Part shown: one piece after another, positions 17,343-26,039 of the stretch
How the letters are laid out: each line of letters opens with the position of its first letter
How positions within the stretch are numbered: the first letter of the stretch is position 1
From: Leucobacter luti
GTDB taxonomy: Bacteria; Actinomycetota; Actinomycetes; Actinomycetales; Microbacteriaceae
NCBI RefSeq assembly: GCF_019464495.1
Contig: NZ_CP080492.1
Coordinates: 2,604,001-2,668,000 of the forward strand
Direction of reading: 5' to 3'
Length of the DNA stretch: 64,000 nt
Position numbers and translations under genes: made by a program
Notes under the pieces: generated by a model
The model's database searches: none
Told to the model about the DNA's origin: nothing
The model's input: the letters and a program-made list of their open reading frames with translations, nothing else

Positions 17343-19136
17343 ATGACTGCTTACACGAGCTGGCGGAGGCGTTCCGCCTCAGTGCTGGCAACCACCACAG
17401 CGGTGCTCCTCGCCGTGAGCGGCGCGCTGATGGCACCCGCAATTGCGAACGCCGACGAGCCCATCGCGCCGACTCTGACGGTGGAACCGAACGTCGACCT
17501 GAACCGCGAGGGTGCCACGGTCACGATCACGGGCACGGGCTACAACCCCAATCAGCCGATCTACGTCACCACATGTGCGGATACGGCGTTGGAAAATCTG
17601 AACTTTGCCTACATCAACAATGGGTGCACCACTGGCGCGAAGCAGATCGCCCTGGGGGCAACTCCGTCGCCGCGCGCGGACGCGTTCCAAGCCGATGGCT
17701 CGTTCGTCACCACGCTCCCTGTTTCACCGAAGGCGGGCGCGGAAGTGACTTCCGTCTTTACGATCGCGAACCACACCGCCATGACAGACCGTACCCAGGA
17801 CGCGAAAGCGGTTCTCAACTTCGCTCCCGAGGTGGTACCGTCTGGCGTCTCGCCCTCGGTGACCGCAGCTGCGACCACTGGTCTGACGGTCACGACACAA
17901 CTCACTGGTGTGACAGGAACCAACGGAGCCTATGTTGCCGTCATCGAAGCTGGCACATCAGGCGAGATCGACCAGGAACACATGGGTATCGGTTTTCAGT
18001 GGGTCAAGCCCACTGATTTGACCAACGGTGCTGGGGCAAGCGTCATCACCATCGACGCAGCTGATCTCGATCGCACGAAGAGCTACGAGGTGCTCGTGTG
18101 GAAGGGGCACTCGATGCCCGACACTGAGACCACGCTGGGGCTCGCAGCTTTGGCCGTTTCTGGCGCCCAGTGGGACGCGGTGTTCCCCACTGTGGTTGAT
18201 CCGAAGCCGGAACTCACGGCGACGGCAACCGCGAAGCTCGCTTCCAGCCTGGTCGTGCAGGCCCAGTTGAAGAACATTGATTCGCCTACGGGTGCCTATG
18301 TGTCAATCATTGAAGCCGGAACGGCGGCCGAGCTGTCACGCACGAACCAGGGCCTTGGCGCTGTGTGGGTTCAGCCAGGCCAATTCGACAATGGATCCGC
18401 CACCGTTGACGTTGTAGTGCCGAAGAAGGCGCTGGACCGCACCAAGCAGTACGAGGCCGTTTCCTGGAAGGGTCACACGAATCCCGAGCTCGAGTCGCTC
18501 TACGGAATCGCCGAGCTGACGATCCCGGCTGCAACCTGGGACGCAGTCATGCAGGAAACGCCATTTACCGACGTGAAGAAGGGCCAGGATTTCTACTCTG
18601 AAATCTCCTGGATGTTCAACAACGGAATCACGACGGGCGTCGCGCAGAGTGACGGAACCGTGAAGTACGAGCCGAAGTGGAAGATCTCCCGCGAAGCTGT
18701 CGCCGCGTTCATGTACCGCCAGTATGGTGACCCCAAGTTCAAAGCACCGTCTACGAGCCCGTTCGCTGACGTGCAGAAGAGCGACCCCTTCTACAAGGAG
18801 ATTGCCTGGATGGCCGCGGAGGGAATCTCCACGGGAGTGAACGCGCCGGGCGGAAAAGTGAACTTCCAGCCGAAGGCGAAGATCACCCGTGAAGCGATGG
18901 CTGCGTTCATGTACCGCGTCGACGACAGCGTGAAGCCTGCGGCGCCAAAGGTATCGCCTTTCGCGGACATGACTCCGAATAGCAAGTTCTACAAGGAAAT
19001 CGCCTGGATGCACTCAACCGGCCTGTCGACTGGTGTGAAGCAGACAACGGGGAAGGCGAAGTACGAACCGAAGTGGCAAATCTCGCGAGAGGCTACGGCT
19101 GCCTTCCTCGCGCGGCACGACGCCATGGCGAAGTAG
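17343..19136 (+). CDS. Secreted SLH-domain surface protein of the heme locus
   Basis: 597 residues. A signal peptide (about 1-38, ending AIANA) is followed by a neocarzinostatin-like Ig domain (about 42-165: VTITGTGY, a Cys pair, DRTQDAKAVL) typical of HtaA-associated proteins, then two copies of a ~110-residue domain (about 170-282 and 287-401; hallmarks GAYV..IEAGT, LDRTK.YE, WKGH, WDAV). Three SLH repeats fill 405-597 (FADV/FTDV, FYKEIAWM, TGV, ISREA). SLH repeats bind pyruvylated wall polymers. The iron box at 17255 and the HtaA gene downstream suggest a wall-bound helper in heme capture. Its own ligand is unknown. Confidence 0.85.
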   Translation: MTAYTSWRRRSASVLATTTAVLLAVSGALMAPAIANADEPIAPTLTVEPNVDLNREGATVTITGTGYNPNQPIYVTTCADTALENLNFAYINNGCTTGAKQIALGATPSPRADAFQADGSFVTTLPVSPKAGAEVTSVFTIANHTAMTDRTQDAKAVLNFAPEVVPSGVSPSVTAAATTGLTVTTQLTGVTGTNGAYVAVIEAGTSGEIDQEHMGIGFQWVKPTDLTNGAGASVITIDAADLDRTKSYEVLVWKGHSMPDTETTLGLAALAVSGAQWDAVFPTVVDPKPELTATATAKLASSLVVQAQLKNIDSPTGAYVSIIEAGTAAELSRTNQGLGAVWVQPGQFDNGSATVDVVVPKKALDRTKQYEAVSWKGHTNPELESLYGIAELTIPAATWDAVMQETPFTDVKKGQDFYSEISWMFNNGITTGVAQSDGTVKYEPKWKISREAVAAFMYRQYGDPKFKAPSTSPFADVQKSDPFYKEIAWMAAEGISTGVNAPGGKVNFQPKAKITREAMAAFMYRVDDSVKPAAPKVSPFADMTPNSKFYKEIAWMHSTGLSTGVKQTTGKAKYEPKWQISREATAAFLARHDAMAK

Positions 19137-19155
19137 TAGACCTGTGCCGGTGGCC

Positions 19156-19202
19156 GTGGGGTGTTGGGCTGAGCGTCTCGTGCGCTCGGCTCAGCACCCC
19201 AC
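19156..19202 (+). terminator. Long hairpin after the SLH gene
   Basis: A 20-bp stem with a few G-T pairs, GTGGGGTG...GAGCG (19156-19175) with CGCTC...CACCCCAC (19183-19202), 20 bp after the SLH stop. There is no T run. Confidence 0.6.
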
Positions 19203-19345
19203 GCTGTCTGCCACAGCCGAGACCTGGTGGCGACGCCAGGTGGCCCCCAAACGGGCCGGAGACCGGAACGAACCAACGATTCCCGTGGTAATTTTGCGGG
19301 ATCGAATGCGCACAGTGTGCGCCGCAATCAGGGAGCGCATGCCGC

Positions 19346-22300
19346 ATGTACGCACGTAGGGCTTTCCGTGGAATTGCCGCGGGACTTGTGGCAGCAGCGC
19401 TCTTCTCGGGGGGCGTGTTTGCGGATCCAGCGATCGCCATAGACGAGGCTGCGGGAGCCTCTCAGGCCGAGATCGGAGCGGCTTCCGACGCCAGCGAGCT
19501 CCTGACTCCAACCGATGATCCACCCACGGCTGCAGACGATACGGGTGTTGTCCAACATGCTGGGGACGTGCTAGCCCCTGAGACTCCAGCACTGCCCTCG
19601 GAGTCTTCAGACGAATCGAATCCGAATACCGCGATCGGCGACGGCTCTGAAGACCCCGCGTCACCGCTGCCCGCAGACGGTGCAGAAGTTCCTGGTCCAG
19701 TCGCCCCGACTGGCGAAGCCGCCTCTGTCCCAGGGGCGGTGGATGACCGAGTAGCTCAGACGGCGAAGCCCGCAATGAAACTCGTTCCCAAAATCTCGGC
19801 GAAGAACAGCCTGGCGGTTCAAGCTAGCGTGACGGGAATGCCGAGTGACGTCACTGAAGTTACCGCCATCATGCTTTCTCAGCTCGACGAAGAACGGATT
19901 GAAAGCAACCGGACGGCTATCACCCCTATTGGCACCGTGACTTCTCCCGTCGTCAACGGTGCAGTTGACCTGACGCTCAAGGCTTCGCTCGGCGAACTGA
20001 CTCGTGACACGGCATACGCCGTGGTGTTGTGGCCCACTGCTTCCGAACTGACGGTGGACTCGATTCTTGTTCGTGGCGACGTCGTGCTGACGAATGATCA
20101 GTGGGATGAGCTCTATGGAACGGTGCCGGCCGCCGTCGCCGAAGTCGGGAGTCTCCAATGGGGCGTGCTGGACAGATTCCGCGCCTATATTGAAGGTGAC
20201 ATAGCCAAGGGAGAAATCATGACCCTTGGTGCCGCGAAGTATGACGGGACAAAATTTAACCTGCCTCAGATCGCAGGCGGGAAATGGAATGCTCAGTCGA
20301 AGACTGGAAGTGTTCAGTACTCGGGCGGAATGCGATTTTACGGTCACGACGGTCAGCTGGATCTCAGCTTCGAGAATCCCGTCATCACGGTGAAGAGCGC
20401 GAATCGTGCTGAGTTGACGGTGTACTCAGAGTCCTACGATTTCAAAGCGGAGAAGTGGGTCGAGCGCACGGCCGTGCTCGCAACTATCGACCTATCGACC
20501 GCGACGCGCACTGAGCGTAAGGGTGGTGCAGTCCGCTGGGCAGGCGCCAGTGCGACGCTCACCAAGATCGGAAACGTGATGCTCGAGGGCTACTACAAGG
20601 AGGGCCAGCGCCTCGACCCGATCACCTTTACGGTGGGGGCAGAGTCCAAGGATGTGAAGCCTGTCCCCCCTGCGACGAAGCCGAAGCCGAAGCCAATCAC
20701 GACGAAGCCTGTCCCGAAACCGCTCGTGCCCGCACCGAACGCGAGTGAGGGTGGCGCCCAGGCAGCTGGGTCGCTGAGCTGGGGTGTCTCCAGCGCCTTC
20801 GCGAAATATGTCACTGGTCCGATCGCCAAAGGTGAGGTGTCCACGACAGGTGTAGGCGGGTCCGGGGGAGCGTATCTCTTCCCCCAGGCGGCAGGAGGCA
20901 GCTGGGACACGGCAACTCAGACCGGATCAGTGCAGTACTCCGGTGTCGTCTCCTTCACCGGGCATAAAGGCCTGTTGCAGGAGGGCGTGAGTAACCCGAT
21001 GATTCAGGTCACCGGACCCGACTCGGCCGTCATCTACTCGGGTGGTGCGCAATGGGGCACCCTCAACCTCGGTGCGGCTTCCAAATCCGTCGGTGCGAAC
21101 GGCGAGGTCACCTGGAGCGGAGTGCCCGTCACTGGCGGCTTTTCCGGCGGAGCCTCTGGCGGCAACCAGTACTCGCTGCCTGCAGATCCCTTGACCTTCA
21201 CTGTGGGCGTGGCCAGCGGTGTCAGCTACGGCAGCACCGCAGTGAGTAACGAGTCACTGAAGCGCACTGCAGCGTCAGCGCCGCCGACGACGACGGGGAT
21301 TCGGATCCTGACCGATGCCAAGAAGCTTGTGCCCGGTGGCGAGATTGAGTTCGAGGCAGCAGGCTTCGAGTCGAAAGAGCGCGAGGCGCTCGTGGTCCTG
21401 TACCCCGGGGCCATCGTGCTTGATGAGGCAGCTGGAGCTGACGCAGCTGGCACGCTGCGCTGGCTCGGCACGATTCCCGAGGACACCGAGCTGGGGGAGT
21501 ACGTCATCACTGTGCAGGGCAGCACGGACGCTGGCGCTGTGATTGAGGTCCGCGAACCCGAGAAGAAATCCAAAGCCGCGGCGAAGCAGAAAACTGTCGA
21601 GGAACTTGCGGCCGAGGCGACACAGGCAGCACCGGCAGCTGCTGGGATCCTTCCGACTGAGAGTAGCCCAGTGTGGGTCTGGTGGGCAGCGTCCGCAGGC
21701 CTGCTACTCATCGCCGGAACGATGGGTGGCCTCGTCGTTGCGCAGCGAAAGCGCGCAGCCGCGGGCGTCGATACCCAGCTCAGCCCAGGCAACGCACCCC
21801 CGCCCCGTAATATGGGTGCCACTCGCGGGAAGCCCGCGGCGCGCCCCAGCCCCACAAGGAGAACACCCGTGCACACCACTCAGCACCCCGGCAGCGCGGT
21901 CTCGCGACGCGCAGTAGTGATCCTCGGCGCGGGTCTGCTCGCAGCCGGATCCCTCGCGGTGCCAGCAGCTGCGACAGCCGCCACCGCGGCCCCAATCCAC
22001 GCGACCACCGATGCAGCATGCAGCGTGAGCGCAGCCACACTGACCTGGGGCGTGAAAGAGAGTTTCCGTTCGTACATCAGCGGCTCGATCGCGAATGGTG
22101 AGTGGACCGTCAGCGATGACATGCGCTACGAAACTCCGAACTTTATTTGGGACACGGCGACCGCAGCGTTCGCCAGCGATCTGGAATCAGGCAACATCGG
22201 GTTCACGGGTGCGGTGCACTTTACCGGCCACGATGGCGCAATGAAGCTTGACCTCGCCGACCCCGTGCTCGAGTTCGACGGCGCCGACACCGCCTACCTG

Positions 22301-22813
22301 ACCCTCACCATCGGGGCCACCGACTCGGCAGATGCCGGAGGCGAAGCGACAGCGGCACCGGTACGCGCTGCGAAGATCGACCTCGCTGACGCGGTGACGT
22401 CCGGCGGCACCGAACTCAGCATTCAGAGCGCGGTTCCGCGCCTCACCGCAGAGGGCGCAGCGGCGTTCAACGGCGACTACGGTAGCTACGTCGCGGGAGA
22501 GGAACTCGACCCAATCACCCTCACCGCCACGGTGTCCGGCTGCGCACTCGGTGAAGCGACTGCCGTGACTCCCGCCCCCACCGCTCCAACGGATCCTGCG
22601 GACCCAGTCGATCCGGTAACTCCGGTCGACGGTGGCGAAACTGCGGCGCCCGCGATCCCGTGGCTCCCGATCGCGATCGGCGGCGTCGCCCTGCTCGTGA
22701 TCGGCGTCACCGGAGGCATGCTACTCGCGGGCCGCAAGAAGCCGCAAGCCACAGCCTCCGAGCAAGCCGCGTCACAGCCGACCGCGACGCAGGATCCCAC
22801 TTCGGAGGGATAA
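19346..22813 (+). CDS. htaA: HtaA-domain heme-binding surface protein, apparent fusion of two genes
   Basis: One 1155-codon frame as sequenced. Part 1 (about 1-820): signal peptide, one copy of the domain shared with the SLH protein (about 145-260), HtaA domains at about 265-430 and 465-630 (L.WGV...F..Y, GxIAKGE, GHDG/GHKG), an Ig-like domain, a TM helix (about 774-797) and a basic tail. Part 2 (from residue 842) opens with its own ribosome-binding site, GTG start and signal peptide, then another HtaA domain and TM anchor. HtaA proteins bind heme and pass it to HmuT. One missing C at 21797-21801 would explain the fusion: with it, part 1 ends at TAA 21808-21810. Confidence 0.85.
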   Translation: MYARRAFRGIAAGLVAAALFSGGVFADPAIAIDEAAGASQAEIGAASDASELLTPTDDPPTAADDTGVVQHAGDVLAPETPALPSESSDESNPNTAIGDGSEDPASPLPADGAEVPGPVAPTGEAASVPGAVDDRVAQTAKPAMKLVPKISAKNSLAVQASVTGMPSDVTEVTAIMLSQLDEERIESNRTAITPIGTVTSPVVNGAVDLTLKASLGELTRDTAYAVVLWPTASELTVDSILVRGDVVLTNDQWDELYGTVPAAVAEVGSLQWGVLDRFRAYIEGDIAKGEIMTLGAAKYDGTKFNLPQIAGGKWNAQSKTGSVQYSGGMRFYGHDGQLDLSFENPVITVKSANRAELTVYSESYDFKAEKWVERTAVLATIDLSTATRTERKGGAVRWAGASATLTKIGNVMLEGYYKEGQRLDPITFTVGAESKDVKPVPPATKPKPKPITTKPVPKPLVPAPNASEGGAQAAGSLSWGVSSAFAKYVTGPIAKGEVSTTGVGGSGGAYLFPQAAGGSWDTATQTGSVQYSGVVSFTGHKGLLQEGVSNPMIQVTGPDSAVIYSGGAQWGTLNLGAASKSVGANGEVTWSGVPVTGGFSGGASGGNQYSLPADPLTFTVGVASGVSYGSTAVSNESLKRTAASAPPTTTGIRILTDAKKLVPGGEIEFEAAGFESKEREALVVLYPGAIVLDEAAGADAAGTLRWLGTIPEDTELGEYVITVQGSTDAGAVIEVREPEKKSKAAAKQKTVEELAAEATQAAPAAAGILPTESSPVWVWWAASAGLLLIAGTMGGLVVAQRKRAAAGVDTQLSPGNAPPPRNMGATRGKPAARPSPTRRTPVHTTQHPGSAVSRRAVVILGAGLLAAGSLAVPAAATAATAAPIHATTDAACSVSAATLTWGVKESFRSYISGSIANGEWTVSDDMRYETPNFIWDTATAAFASDLESGNIGFTGAVHFTGHDGAMKLDLADPVLEFDGADTAYLTLTIGATDSADAGGEATAAPVRAAKIDLADAVTSGGTELSIQSAVPRLTAEGAAAFNGDYGSYVAGEELDPITLTATVSGCALGEATAVTPAPTAPTDPADPVDPVTPVDGGETAAPAIPWLPIAIGGVALLVIGVTGGMLLAGRKKPQATASEQAASQPTATQDPTSEG
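21869..22813 (+). CDS. Second HtaA-domain protein (probable separate gene inside the fused frame)
   Basis: AAGGAG (21856-21861) lies 7 nt before GTG 21869. The 314-residue product begins with a textbook signal peptide (RRAVVILGAGLLAAG...AAATA), then one HtaA domain (TLTWGVKESFRSYI, GSIANGEW, HFTGHDGAM), a Thr/Pro/Asp linker, a TM helix (LPIAIGGVALLVIGVTGGML) and a short tail. This is the layout of a one-domain HtaA/HtaB-type heme relay protein. It can be translated on its own whether or not upstream ribosomes read through. Confidence 0.7.
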   Translation: MHTTQHPGSAVSRRAVVILGAGLLAAGSLAVPAAATAATAAPIHATTDAACSVSAATLTWGVKESFRSYISGSIANGEWTVSDDMRYETPNFIWDTATAAFASDLESGNIGFTGAVHFTGHDGAMKLDLADPVLEFDGADTAYLTLTIGATDSADAGGEATAAPVRAAKIDLADAVTSGGTELSIQSAVPRLTAEGAAAFNGDYGSYVAGEELDPITLTATVSGCALGEATAVTPAPTAPTDPADPVDPVTPVDGGETAAPAIPWLPIAIGGVALLVIGVTGGMLLAGRKKPQATASEQAASQPTATQDPTSEG

Positions 22814-22822
22814 GCCCGAGCG

Positions 22823-23641
22823 CTACACGCGGCGCTTCGGCATTACGATCCCCTGCCCCGTTACGGGGTGGGGGATCACCTCTACCGGGGTGCGGTAGAC
22901 ATCGCTCACGATTTCTGCAGTAAGCACTCGGTCCGGCACATCGCACGCGGCAATCCGGCCGTCGCGCAGCAGCGCGATGCGATCGGAGTACGCCGCCGCG
23001 AGATTCAGATCGTGCAGCACGACGAGCACCGCGTCCCCGGCGGCCGCTCGCTCGCGCGCGAGCCCCAGCACCGCTTCCTGGTGTCCGAGGTCGAGTGCGG
23101 CAGTCGGCTCGTCAAGCATCAGCACGCCAGTGCGCCCGGCCATCACGCGCGCGAACGCGGTGCGTGCGCGCTCTCCGCCCGAGAGTGACGGTACGCGCCG
23201 GTTTCCGAGGTGTCCGATGTCTGCGGCCGTGATTGCCTCGCCGATCGCCTCATTGTCGTCGTCTTCGCGCGGGGTGCGGCGCCACGGCGCACGGCCCATC
23301 TCAACAACCTGGTGCACCGTGAACGGGAACAAGAGCTGGTTGTCCTGCAGCAGTACGCTGCGTCGCCGCGAGAGGTCACCGAGCGACCACTCAGAGAGCG
23401 GGCGCCCACTGAAGCGAGCCTCCCCGCTATCCGGCGTCAGGTCCCCGGAGAGTACGCTCAGCAGCGTAGACTTCCCGGCACCGTTCGGGCCGAGCAGTGC
23501 GAGAACCTCGCCTGCGCGCACGTCGAGCGATACGCCGTCGAGCAGCGCACGTCCGCCACGCTTGAGCACGATTGCATCAGCTTCGCAGACCACTTCGCCG
23601 ATCGGGGCGACCGTGGGGAGCGCAATGTGTCGGGCGTTCAT
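22823..23641 (-). CDS. hmuV: Heme ABC transporter ATP-binding protein HmuV
   Basis: 272 residues: Walker A GPNGAGKST (51-59), Q-loop LLQDNQLLFPF, signature LSGGERART, Walker B VLMLDEPTAALD, and a switch His in VLHDLNLA. This is the FecE/BtuD class that drives iron-chelate or heme import. Its start overlaps the permease stop (23638-23641). The tail is convergent with the HtaA gene, 9 bp away. The heme assignment rests on the HtaA neighbours. Confidence 0.93.
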   Translation of the reverse strand: MNARHIALPTVAPIGEVVCEADAIVLKRGGRALLDGVSLDVRAGEVLALLGPNGAGKSTLLSVLSGDLTPDSGEARFSGRPLSEWSLGDLSRRRSVLLQDNQLLFPFTVHQVVEMGRAPWRRTPREDDDNEAIGEAITAADIGHLGNRRVPSLSGGERARTAFARVMAGRTGVLMLDEPTAALDLGHQEAVLGLARERAAAGDAVLVVLHDLNLAAAYSDRIALLRDGRIAACDVPDRVLTAEIVSDVYRTPVEVIPHPVTGQGIVMPKRRV

Positions 23642-24702
23642 CCCCAGCCTCCGCTCCGTTTGCGCGTTCGTCGCAGCAGCCAGAAGAAGAACGGGCCGCC
23701 GACGAGCGCGGTGAGCATACCGATCGGCATGTCTGCCATCGGAACAAGTGTGCGCGCTGCGAGATCCGCAAGAGTCAGCAGCAGCGCACCGCCGAGTGCG
23801 CTCGCGGTGACCAACGGAAGGTGCGCGGGACCCAGGAGCATGCGCATGAGGTGCGGGATCACGAGCCCGACAAACGCGATGATGCCGGCGAACGCGACGG
23901 CTGCTCCGACGAGCAGGGCGACAACGAAGATCATGACGATCCGGAGCAGCTCGACATTTACGCCGAGGTGGCGTGCGTTCCGCTCACCCAGGGAGAGCAG
24001 ATCGAGCTTGCGTGCGGCAATGTATGCCGCGATCAAGCCCACCGCGATAATCGGCGCGATGATGAGCACCTGGGACCAGCGGCTCCCGGCGAGACTCCCG
24101 AGCTGCCAGAAGACGATCTGCTCGCGTGATTGGGTGTCTCCGAGAAACGTGAGGAGCGCAATACCCGCGCCACCCATCGCATTGACTGCCACGCCCGTCA
24201 GCACGAGGGTGACCACCTCAGTTTTCCCCTCCGCGCGGCTCATCCCGTAGACCACAAGTGTGGCTCCGAGGCCAAAGATAAACGCGAACACCGCGGTGGT
24301 CCACTCACCAAAGATGGTGAGGCCAAAGACGATCGCGAGGCCCGCGCCGACTGCTGCACCGGAAGAGATGCCAATGACGCCCGGCTCTGCGAGCGGGTTC
24401 CCAAAGATTGCCTGCATCAGGAGACCGGACACGGCCAACCCTGCACCCACGAGGGCTGCCATTGCGACGCGGGGGAAGCGGATCGCCCACAGGGTCTGAT
24501 CGCCTGCCGGGTGCGACGGCATGGGAAGCCAATCGATCCCGATCCGATGCAGCAGGGATCCTAAGACCTCCTGCGGTGGAATTCCGAGCTGGCCCGTTCC
24601 CGCCGAGATCAAGACAGAAGCGATCAGGGCGATGCCGAGGGCGCTGAACAGGATCGTCGTCTTTGCGGCGTGCCGCGAAGCGGTTCTGTGGGAGGTGGTC
24701 AT
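23638..24702 (-). CDS. hmuU: Heme ABC transporter permease HmuU (FecCD family)
   Basis: 354 residues with about ten membrane helices and FecCD family signatures such as GNPLAEPGVIGISSGA and VPHL-like IPHLMRMLLGPAHL. It forms the membrane channel with HmuV and receives heme from HmuT. It is divergent from hmuT; the 209-bp gap carries an iron box. The order hmuT | hmuU-hmuV differs from the simple hmuTUV operon of corynebacteria. Confidence 0.93.
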   Translation of the reverse strand: MTTSHRTASRHAAKTTILFSALGIALIASVLISAGTGQLGIPPQEVLGSLLHRIGIDWLPMPSHPAGDQTLWAIRFPRVAMAALVGAGLAVSGLLMQAIFGNPLAEPGVIGISSGAAVGAGLAIVFGLTIFGEWTTAVFAFIFGLGATLVVYGMSRAEGKTEVVTLVLTGVAVNAMGGAGIALLTFLGDTQSREQIVFWQLGSLAGSRWSQVLIIAPIIAVGLIAAYIAARKLDLLSLGERNARHLGVNVELLRIVMIFVVALLVGAAVAFAGIIAFVGLVIPHLMRMLLGPAHLPLVTASALGGALLLTLADLAARTLVPMADMPIGMLTALVGGPFFFWLLRRTRKRSGGWG

Positions 24703-24911: not shown

Positions 24912-26039
24912 ATGCACTCGACTCGCGGCATGCGTGCGCGACGCACACTCGCCCTAGCCACGATCGCCCTGCTGAGCCTGGGACTCGCGGCATGTCAGAC
25001 CCCCGCGTCCTCCACTTCGGGCACTGAGAGTGAAGCGGTCGCGCTTCCCCCGCTGTCTGAGATCACTCCGGTGGCGGATCCGAGCAACGTTGAGGGCCCC
25101 TCGACCGCGCGCATCGGTGGCCCGTCGATCGCCCCACTTCCCGACCCGCCCGCACCCGAGCTGCCGGTCACGGTCACCTCACACGACCGCACCGGGGACA
25201 CTGAAATCACAGTGACTGACACCTCACGGGTGCTCGCGCTTTCGCTGAGTGGATCGCTCGGCGAACTCGTGCACGCGTACGGACTGTCTGATCAGCTTGT
25301 CGGGCGCGACATTTCGACCAACTTCCCAGGAGCCGAGGATCTCCCGGTCGTCACGAAAGACGGCCACTCGATTGACGCGGAGGGCGTGCTCGCACTGAGC
25401 CCAACGGTGATTCTCACGGACGGCAGCATCGGCCCAGTAGACGTCGTGCTGCAACTGCGTGATGCCGGGATCCCGGTGATCACCGTTGAACGATCGGTCG
25501 ATGCTGAAACAACCTACGAGACTGCGCAGCAGGTTGCCGACGCACTGGGGGTCGGCTCCGCGGCACCCCCGCTCATCGAGACCCTGAAACAAGCGATTGC
25601 GGACAAAGAAGCAGAGGTCGCGAAACTGTTGCCGGCAGACGCTGAGAAGCTGCCGCGTGTCGCGTTCCTCTACGTCCGCGGCACCGCTGGGATCTACTAC
25701 CTCTTTGGTGAAGGCAGCGGGGTGGATAGCCTGATTCGATCGATCGGTGCGCTCGACGTCGCCGAAGAGATCGGGTGGAAGGGTGAGAAGCCCATGACCG
25801 ACGAGGCACTGATCGCGATTGACCCGGATGTGATCCTCGTGATGACCAAGGGGCTCGAGAGTGCTGGCGGGGTCGATGGATTGCTGGCGGCCCAGCCGAG
25901 TATCGCGCTCACCACGGCGGGCAAGAATCGCAGGATCATTGATGTGGATGACACGCTCCTGTTCGCAGGAGGTACCCGCATCCCGGACGTGATCGACGGT
26001 CTTGCCCGAGCGATCTACGCACCGGATTCGCTCAAGTAA
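24912..26039 (+). CDS. hmuT: Heme-binding lipoprotein HmuT
   Basis: 375 residues: a basic N-terminus, hydrophobic stretch and lipobox LGLAAC, a Pro/Ser/Thr linker, then a PeriplasmicBP_2 domain (TSRVLALSLSGSLGELVHAYG; GAEDLPVVTKDGHS; VSVEGVLAL-like strands). This class III binding protein hands heme to HmuUV. In known HmuT proteins heme is held by a His and a Tyr; the His in KDGHSIDAEG is the likely first ligand, as I judge from position. Confidence 0.92.
   Translation: MHSTRGMRARRTLALATIALLSLGLAACQTPASSTSGTESEAVALPPLSEITPVADPSNVEGPSTARIGGPSIAPLPDPPAPELPVTVTSHDRTGDTEITVTDTSRVLALSLSGSLGELVHAYGLSDQLVGRDISTNFPGAEDLPVVTKDGHSIDAEGVLALSPTVILTDGSIGPVDVVLQLRDAGIPVITVERSVDAETTYETAQQVADALGVGSAAPPLIETLKQAIADKEAEVAKLLPADAEKLPRVAFLYVRGTAGIYYLFGEGSGVDSLIRSIGALDVAEEIGWKGEKPMTDEALIAIDPDVILVMTKGLESAGGVDGLLAAQPSIALTTAGKNRRIIDVDDTLLFAGGTRIPDVIDGLARAIYAPDSLK

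Follow-up and report, generated by a model that had tools for sequence, protein, structure and literature searches.

What function do two adjacent, differently anchored surface proteins share when both carry the same unnamed domain? The question is raised by a locus of Leucobacter luti in a 64,000-nucleotide stretch of contig NZ_CP080492.1 (positions 2,604,001 to 2,668,000 of the forward strand; hereafter the window), in which a 597-residue protein ending in SLH domains (17343..19136, + strand) precedes a 1155-residue HtaA protein (19346..22813, + strand). The first-pass annotation of the window had given the right coordinates for both reading frames, and had described a segment of about 110 residues that occurs twice in the SLH protein and once in HtaA. 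We use DX as a working label for this domain. Very probably it serves as an accessory domain in the HtaA-type heme uptake of this actinobacterial order. Our favoured account as a whole, to which we assign a probability of roughly 0.55, is that DX is an immunoglobulin (Ig)-like module that presents heme or hands it on, the binding step being inferred.

One domain in three copies

The copies are S1 (17847..18206) and S2 (18204..18566) in the SLH protein and H (19796..20137) in HtaA, all on the + strand; their boundaries, and those of the HtaA domains given below, are profile matches converted to window coordinates. In Smith-Waterman shuffle tests S1 and S2 aligned with z 39.7 and S1 and H with z 7.5, scores that none of 1000 shuffles reached, while S2 and H gave z 4.3 with 4 of 1000 shuffles as high. 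The N-terminal module of the SLH protein, in the same test, gave z 0.8, -0.9 and -1.0 against S1, S2 and H. A profile begun from S1 and S2 alone and iterated over the frames of loci from same-genus genomes reached H at a domain E of 1.9e-15 after one round, when H was not yet included, and in later rounds at about 1e-19. The shuffle tests and this independent recovery of H rule out chance look-alikes, and the proposal that the three segments are copies of one domain proved right. In the 3.41-Mb genome to which the window belongs, the later profile, made of 84 copies, found S1, S2 and H as its sole matches (E 0.001). The motif outline from which the domain had been recognized is a family signature: G65, L78, Y84, W89 and W113 (S1 numbering) are each at least 90% conserved among the 84 copies.

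DX lies in the same proteins and neighbourhood as the HtaA (CR) domain, PF04213, and is a different domain. A variant of HtaA or SLH is ruled out by hhalign (0.23% and 0.04%, respectively), and in the Pfam search no DX copy matched PF04213.

Predicted fold and relatives

The statement that the domain has no family name held in Pfam and NCBIfam (copies of 2025 and June 2026), where the 84 copies gave no consistent match, only scattered ones of one or two members each (the best E being 0.0098 for Pfam and, by one member to a methyltransferase family, 0.00065 for NCBIfam). PHROGs likewise returned scattered weak matches of one or two members only, and the DX profile found nothing better than E 0.1 among the PDB sequences. 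In the open-licence literature on HtaA we found no description of DX, nor of HtaA together with neocarzinostatin or immunoglobulin-like domains. AlphaFold2 models of S1 (pLDDT 96.8) and H (pLDDT 86.7) show a seven-strand Ig-like sandwich followed by a C-terminal helix, and agree in strand order and in the helix. Judged by these models, DX is an Ig-like domain without a name in the libraries searched.

DX is not an orphan. The N-terminal module of the SLH protein (S0; 17469..17825, + strand) is neocarzinostatin-like and Ig-type according to our own profile and two matches below cut-off: a partial one to NF040680 (E 2.4e-9, 37.2 bits, cut-off 86) and one to PF00960, Neocarzinostatin (16.7 bits, curated cut-off 25). 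Compared directly by hhalign, DX and the neocarzinostatin-like module scored 8.8%, with HtaA and SLH controls under 1%; a bridge subfamily (A2), however, joins the two with 98.6% and 97.5%. Profile comparison thus makes DX kin to the neocarzinostatin-like modules of the same HtaA-linked proteins, solely by way of the bridge. PF00960 was not among the families matched by the 84 DX copies at E 0.1. Members of the neocarzinostatin family have two disulfides; S1, S2 and H contain no cysteine at all.

In the window's own genome the bridge profile matched S1 (3.5e-8) and S2 (2.9e-4) and missed H, and in the phylum sample it found 7 of 396 genomes, three of them outside the family. Its best PDB sequence match was no better than 0.64, and the 29 bridge copies had no consistent match in Pfam, where TIG and Neocarzinostatin were each matched by two members at E about 0.01 (best for PF00960, 0.011). 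In the subfamily (loci L142, L146, L135 and others) 15 columns are invariant, AAH, R and D among them.

Neocarzinostatin-like modules are frequent in HtaA-linked proteins, even though the proteins of the named families carry antibiotics. A second HtaA locus of the window's genome (L168, C1:1432000-1446000) encodes a 775-residue HtaA protein (PF04213) that contains two bridge-like modules and ends in a sortase-like tail; it adjoins two SLH proteins, one of which has a weak HtaA-like segment seen by our own profile (1e-6) and not by Pfam.

Distribution and linkage to HtaA

We found DX in 37 of 54 Leucobacter genomes, in 44 of 249 of the family Microbacteriaceae, in 34 of 297 of the order (24 of these outside the family) and in 5 of 396 of the phylum sample, all five within the own family. 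HtaA is more widespread, being present in 53 of 54 genus and 108 of 249 family genomes. The survey for co-occurrence with HtaA suggested by the first-pass annotation revealed a genomic tie: in the family sample PF04213 was present in 42 of 44 genomes with DX vs. 66 of 205 without it (Fisher p 1e-15, genome lists compared by hand). The two DX genomes lacking PF04213 (G184 and G236) have HtaA-like segments detected by the iterated profile only.

We called a DX frame linked if it shared its frame with HtaA or lay within 3 kb of an HtaA frame on the same strand. In the genus 44 of 48 DX frames were in or beside an HtaA frame, and the remaining four lay on a 3.3-kb contig or within 300 bases of the end of a contig. 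Elsewhere in the family 38 of 46 were linked with the single-pass HtaA profile and 41 of 46 with the iterated one; with the iterated profile, 18 of 24 were linked in other families of the order. These loci were selected by DX, not by HtaA. They came from 37 genus genomes, 39 other family genomes, four more family genomes and 24 genomes of other families; the G173 locus yielded no DX frame in the local search, and the count excludes G210:C4 as well as two places with repeats in G186. The divergent HtaA-like segments found only by the iterated profile matched strict HtaA at 99.4%. They are invisible to Pfam in L122, L186, L127 and L191, the last itself reaching only E 8e-4; conversely, HtaA of L131 was seen by Pfam and missed by both of our HtaA profiles.

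Fused and split arrangements

Topologies were counted with the iterated HtaA profile, and anchors were judged by simple patterns. In the fused type one to seven DX copies are part of the HtaA polypeptide, whereas in the split type, found in 13 genus genomes, DX is also or exclusively carried by a partner protein, which adjoins HtaA in 12 of the 13; in G005 the SLH partner, its frame truncated by a contig end, is on another contig than HtaA. The tail of the partner is of SLH type in ten of these genomes and consists of Ig-like repeats in three (G027, recognized by Pfam; G046 and G052, by eye). Sortase-like tails were seen on DX partners of G015 and G024 in the genus and of G214 in another genus, and the partner of G020 has a masked end. 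Because the tails swap among SLH domains, sortase-like signals and Ig-like repeats, DX is the constant element of the partners. In the tree the partner copies are interspersed among copies from fused arrays.

All DX copies precede all HtaA domains in 56 of 67 fusions of the family, 55 of which have a C-terminal membrane segment; along the chain, the HtaA domains thus mostly lie between the arrays and the membrane anchor.

Both proteins of the split pair bear DX in 8 of the 13 split genomes; in the other five (G002, G023, G026, G027 and G052) the HtaA frame beside the partner has none. In view of these five, sharing of the domain is by itself no proof of DX-DX pairing or of a common partner, and the earlier suggestion that the shared domain points to a common partner, heme source or assembly interface is not supported in that form.

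Several adjacent DX copies in L064 (genome G017) differ little or not at all, which suggests recent growth of the array. The DX partner at L053:6436-8196 opens with a stretch, ASWGLSTYLN, that resembles the start of an HtaA domain by eye and is not called by the profiles.

A histidine in the FG loop

A His in the FG loop is kept in 196 of 250 DX copies and in 98 of 127 non-redundant ones, which makes its column the 7th most conserved of 100. It is present in S1 (WKGHS) and S2 (WKGHT). The bridge modules have an invariant His (29 of 29) at the same alignment place, which is also aligned between the bridge and S0-type modules, the three subfamilies reading WxxH, AAHG and NHT. In split systems the His was found in 16 of 17 partner copies vs. 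2 of 8 HtaA-borne copies (Fisher p 0.001). This value overstates the independence of the observations, because the six HtaA-borne copies without His form one clade in the tree; His was probably lost in a single event, not in six.

Possible role of DX

The SLH protein and HtaA may form one surface assembly with the His-bearing DX modules at the outer wall, where DX would capture heme or a heme carrier, or present it, to the HtaA (CR) domains; these would bind heme by a Tyr ligand and deliver it to HmuT-HmuUV. The HtaA-borne DX of split systems, mostly devoid of the His, may be mainly structural. That DX takes an active part, by presenting or capturing heme, and does more than provide spacing we consider slightly less likely than not. 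There is also a bolder version, which we regard as a doubtful extension: DX would be a second module contacting heme or hemoproteins, with an Ig fold that shares its origin with the neocarzinostatin fold, a holder of ligands. Its FG-loop His would help to trap heme at the outer wall and to pass it on to the HtaA domains with their Tyr ligand, and split systems would have moved this job to an S-layer-type partner while the HtaA-borne copy decayed.

Several observations weigh against a heme-presenting role. The FG-loop His is absent from 29 of the 127 non-redundant copies; the window's own H copy has Ala in its place (WPTA), the four DX of L048:6216-9956 have Arg, and the clade formed by the six His-less copies reduces the weight of the split-system comparison. 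The most conserved residues of DX (Y84, G65 and L78) look structural. With the single-pass HtaA profile only 11 of the 24 DX frames in other families of the order are linked. Finally, DX follows the HtaA domains in 7 of the 67 family fusions, all seven with sortase-like tails (4 of 67 are mixed), and the fusions of other families are divided into 6 with DX before, 6 after and 4 mixed (n=16); in the "after" fusions DX lies where a spacer would be placed.

An alternative is that DX is a passive, wall-spanning spacer or stiffener: its Ig modules would set the reach of HtaA through the wall, with length adjusted by copy number, and the His would cap the FG loop structurally. The predicted Ig-like fold, the one to seven copies per frame with near-identical neighbours in G017, the core-type character of the strongest columns, the occurrence of other Ig repeats in partners and the position between HtaA and a sortase-like tail in some genera all fit this explanation. 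We think it possible but on the unlikely side: in membrane-anchored family fusions DX is mostly beyond the HtaA domains and not between them and the membrane, the tie to HtaA is tighter than expected of a generic spacer, and the FG-loop His is aligned across three subfamilies.

If DX were a docking interface, the copies of the SLH protein would pair with that of HtaA and tether HtaA to the wall, for which the eight split genomes with DX on both proteins could be cited. The five with a DX-less HtaA beside the partner speak against pairing, as does the membrane segment that HtaA has of its own, and the window's H copy is fast-evolving (end branch 1.76), which would be odd for a conserved interface; we find docking quite improbable. 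Still less credible, in our opinion, is that the link to HtaA reflects history and not function, DX having been recruited in one ancestor from a pool of actinobacterial surface Ig repeats. DX-type modules without an HtaA frame nearby do exist (L206, L137, and L195 with HtaA 4.4 kb off), but several families of the order show the same link despite changing anchors and domain order. Of these explanations we prefer the Ig-like accessory module that presents heme or hands it on.

The locus and its neighbours

The SLH protein starts with a signal peptide (by eye), followed by S0, S1, S2 and three SLH domains (18561..19115, + strand) as wall anchor, two stretches of which exceed the PF00395 threshold while our own profile finds three. 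Its match to NF033190 covers the SLH part only (14.7 bits vs. a cut-off of 1275). HtaA (PF04213, E 2e-87 in three stretches) has, after H, HtaA domains 1 (20147..20632), 2 (20768..21175) and 3 (22034..22525), all on the + strand and matched by PF04213, the third following, by eye, an internal membrane segment and a second signal-like one. The frame is free of stops through these two segments into the third domain (21671-22000, residues ~776-885). In several relatives (e.g. L039, L041 and L054) the last HtaA domain has an overlapping frame of its own, and for this reason the window's HtaA frame looks like two fused genes. A stretch in front of the membrane segment (21300-21560, residues ~652-738), ending in GEYVITVQGS, has look-alikes in the fused relatives L064, L044, L040 and L050.

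Downstream are, on the - strand, an hmuV-like heme ABC transporter ATPase (22823..23641; NF010068, 298.7 bits, cut-off 261) and an hmuU-like FecCD permease (23638..24702; PF01032, E 4.5e-92), and on the + strand an ABC substrate-binding protein that is hmuT-like by its place (24912..26039; PF01497, Peripla_BP_2, E 5.1e-29); the latter two reached no NCBIfam cut-off. Three PF04213 stretches, NF010068 over cut-off, FecCD and Peripla_BP_2 together identify the locus as one of HtaA-type heme uptake. A search of the window for a DtxR-type box (up to 3 mismatches) gave no match, a result that speaks neither for nor against iron control.

It is interesting to compare the locus with known heme uptake systems. 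NEAT-type surface systems of Firmicutes have a wall-anchored surface protein beside heme transporter genes, and so has the window; no NEAT family was among the Pfam matches of the SLH and HtaA proteins at E 1. The excerpts of PMC8977872 describe a Corynebacterium relay from HtaA to HtaB to HmuT, and those of PMC12494546 CR domains in which an axial Tyr ligates the heme, in most cases assisted by a His. The HtaA-HtaB-HmuTUV relay (PMC8977872, PMC12494546) shares HtaA domains and hmuTUV-type genes with the window; as far as the same excerpts go, CR domains alone are described there, in contrast to the extra DX of the window. The words "immunoglobulin" and "Ig-like" do not occur in the main text of PMC12494546. 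One paper that mentions both HtaA and Leucobacter states that in its strain the htaABC operon appeared to be missing.

Implications

The HtaA papers found in our searches are mostly about Corynebacterium and its CR domains. If our reading is right, DX would be an added component of heme uptake in actinobacteria beyond Corynebacterium. It is a family for annotators to define, and its FG-loop His offers a clean test of whether heme handling involves an Ig-like domain.

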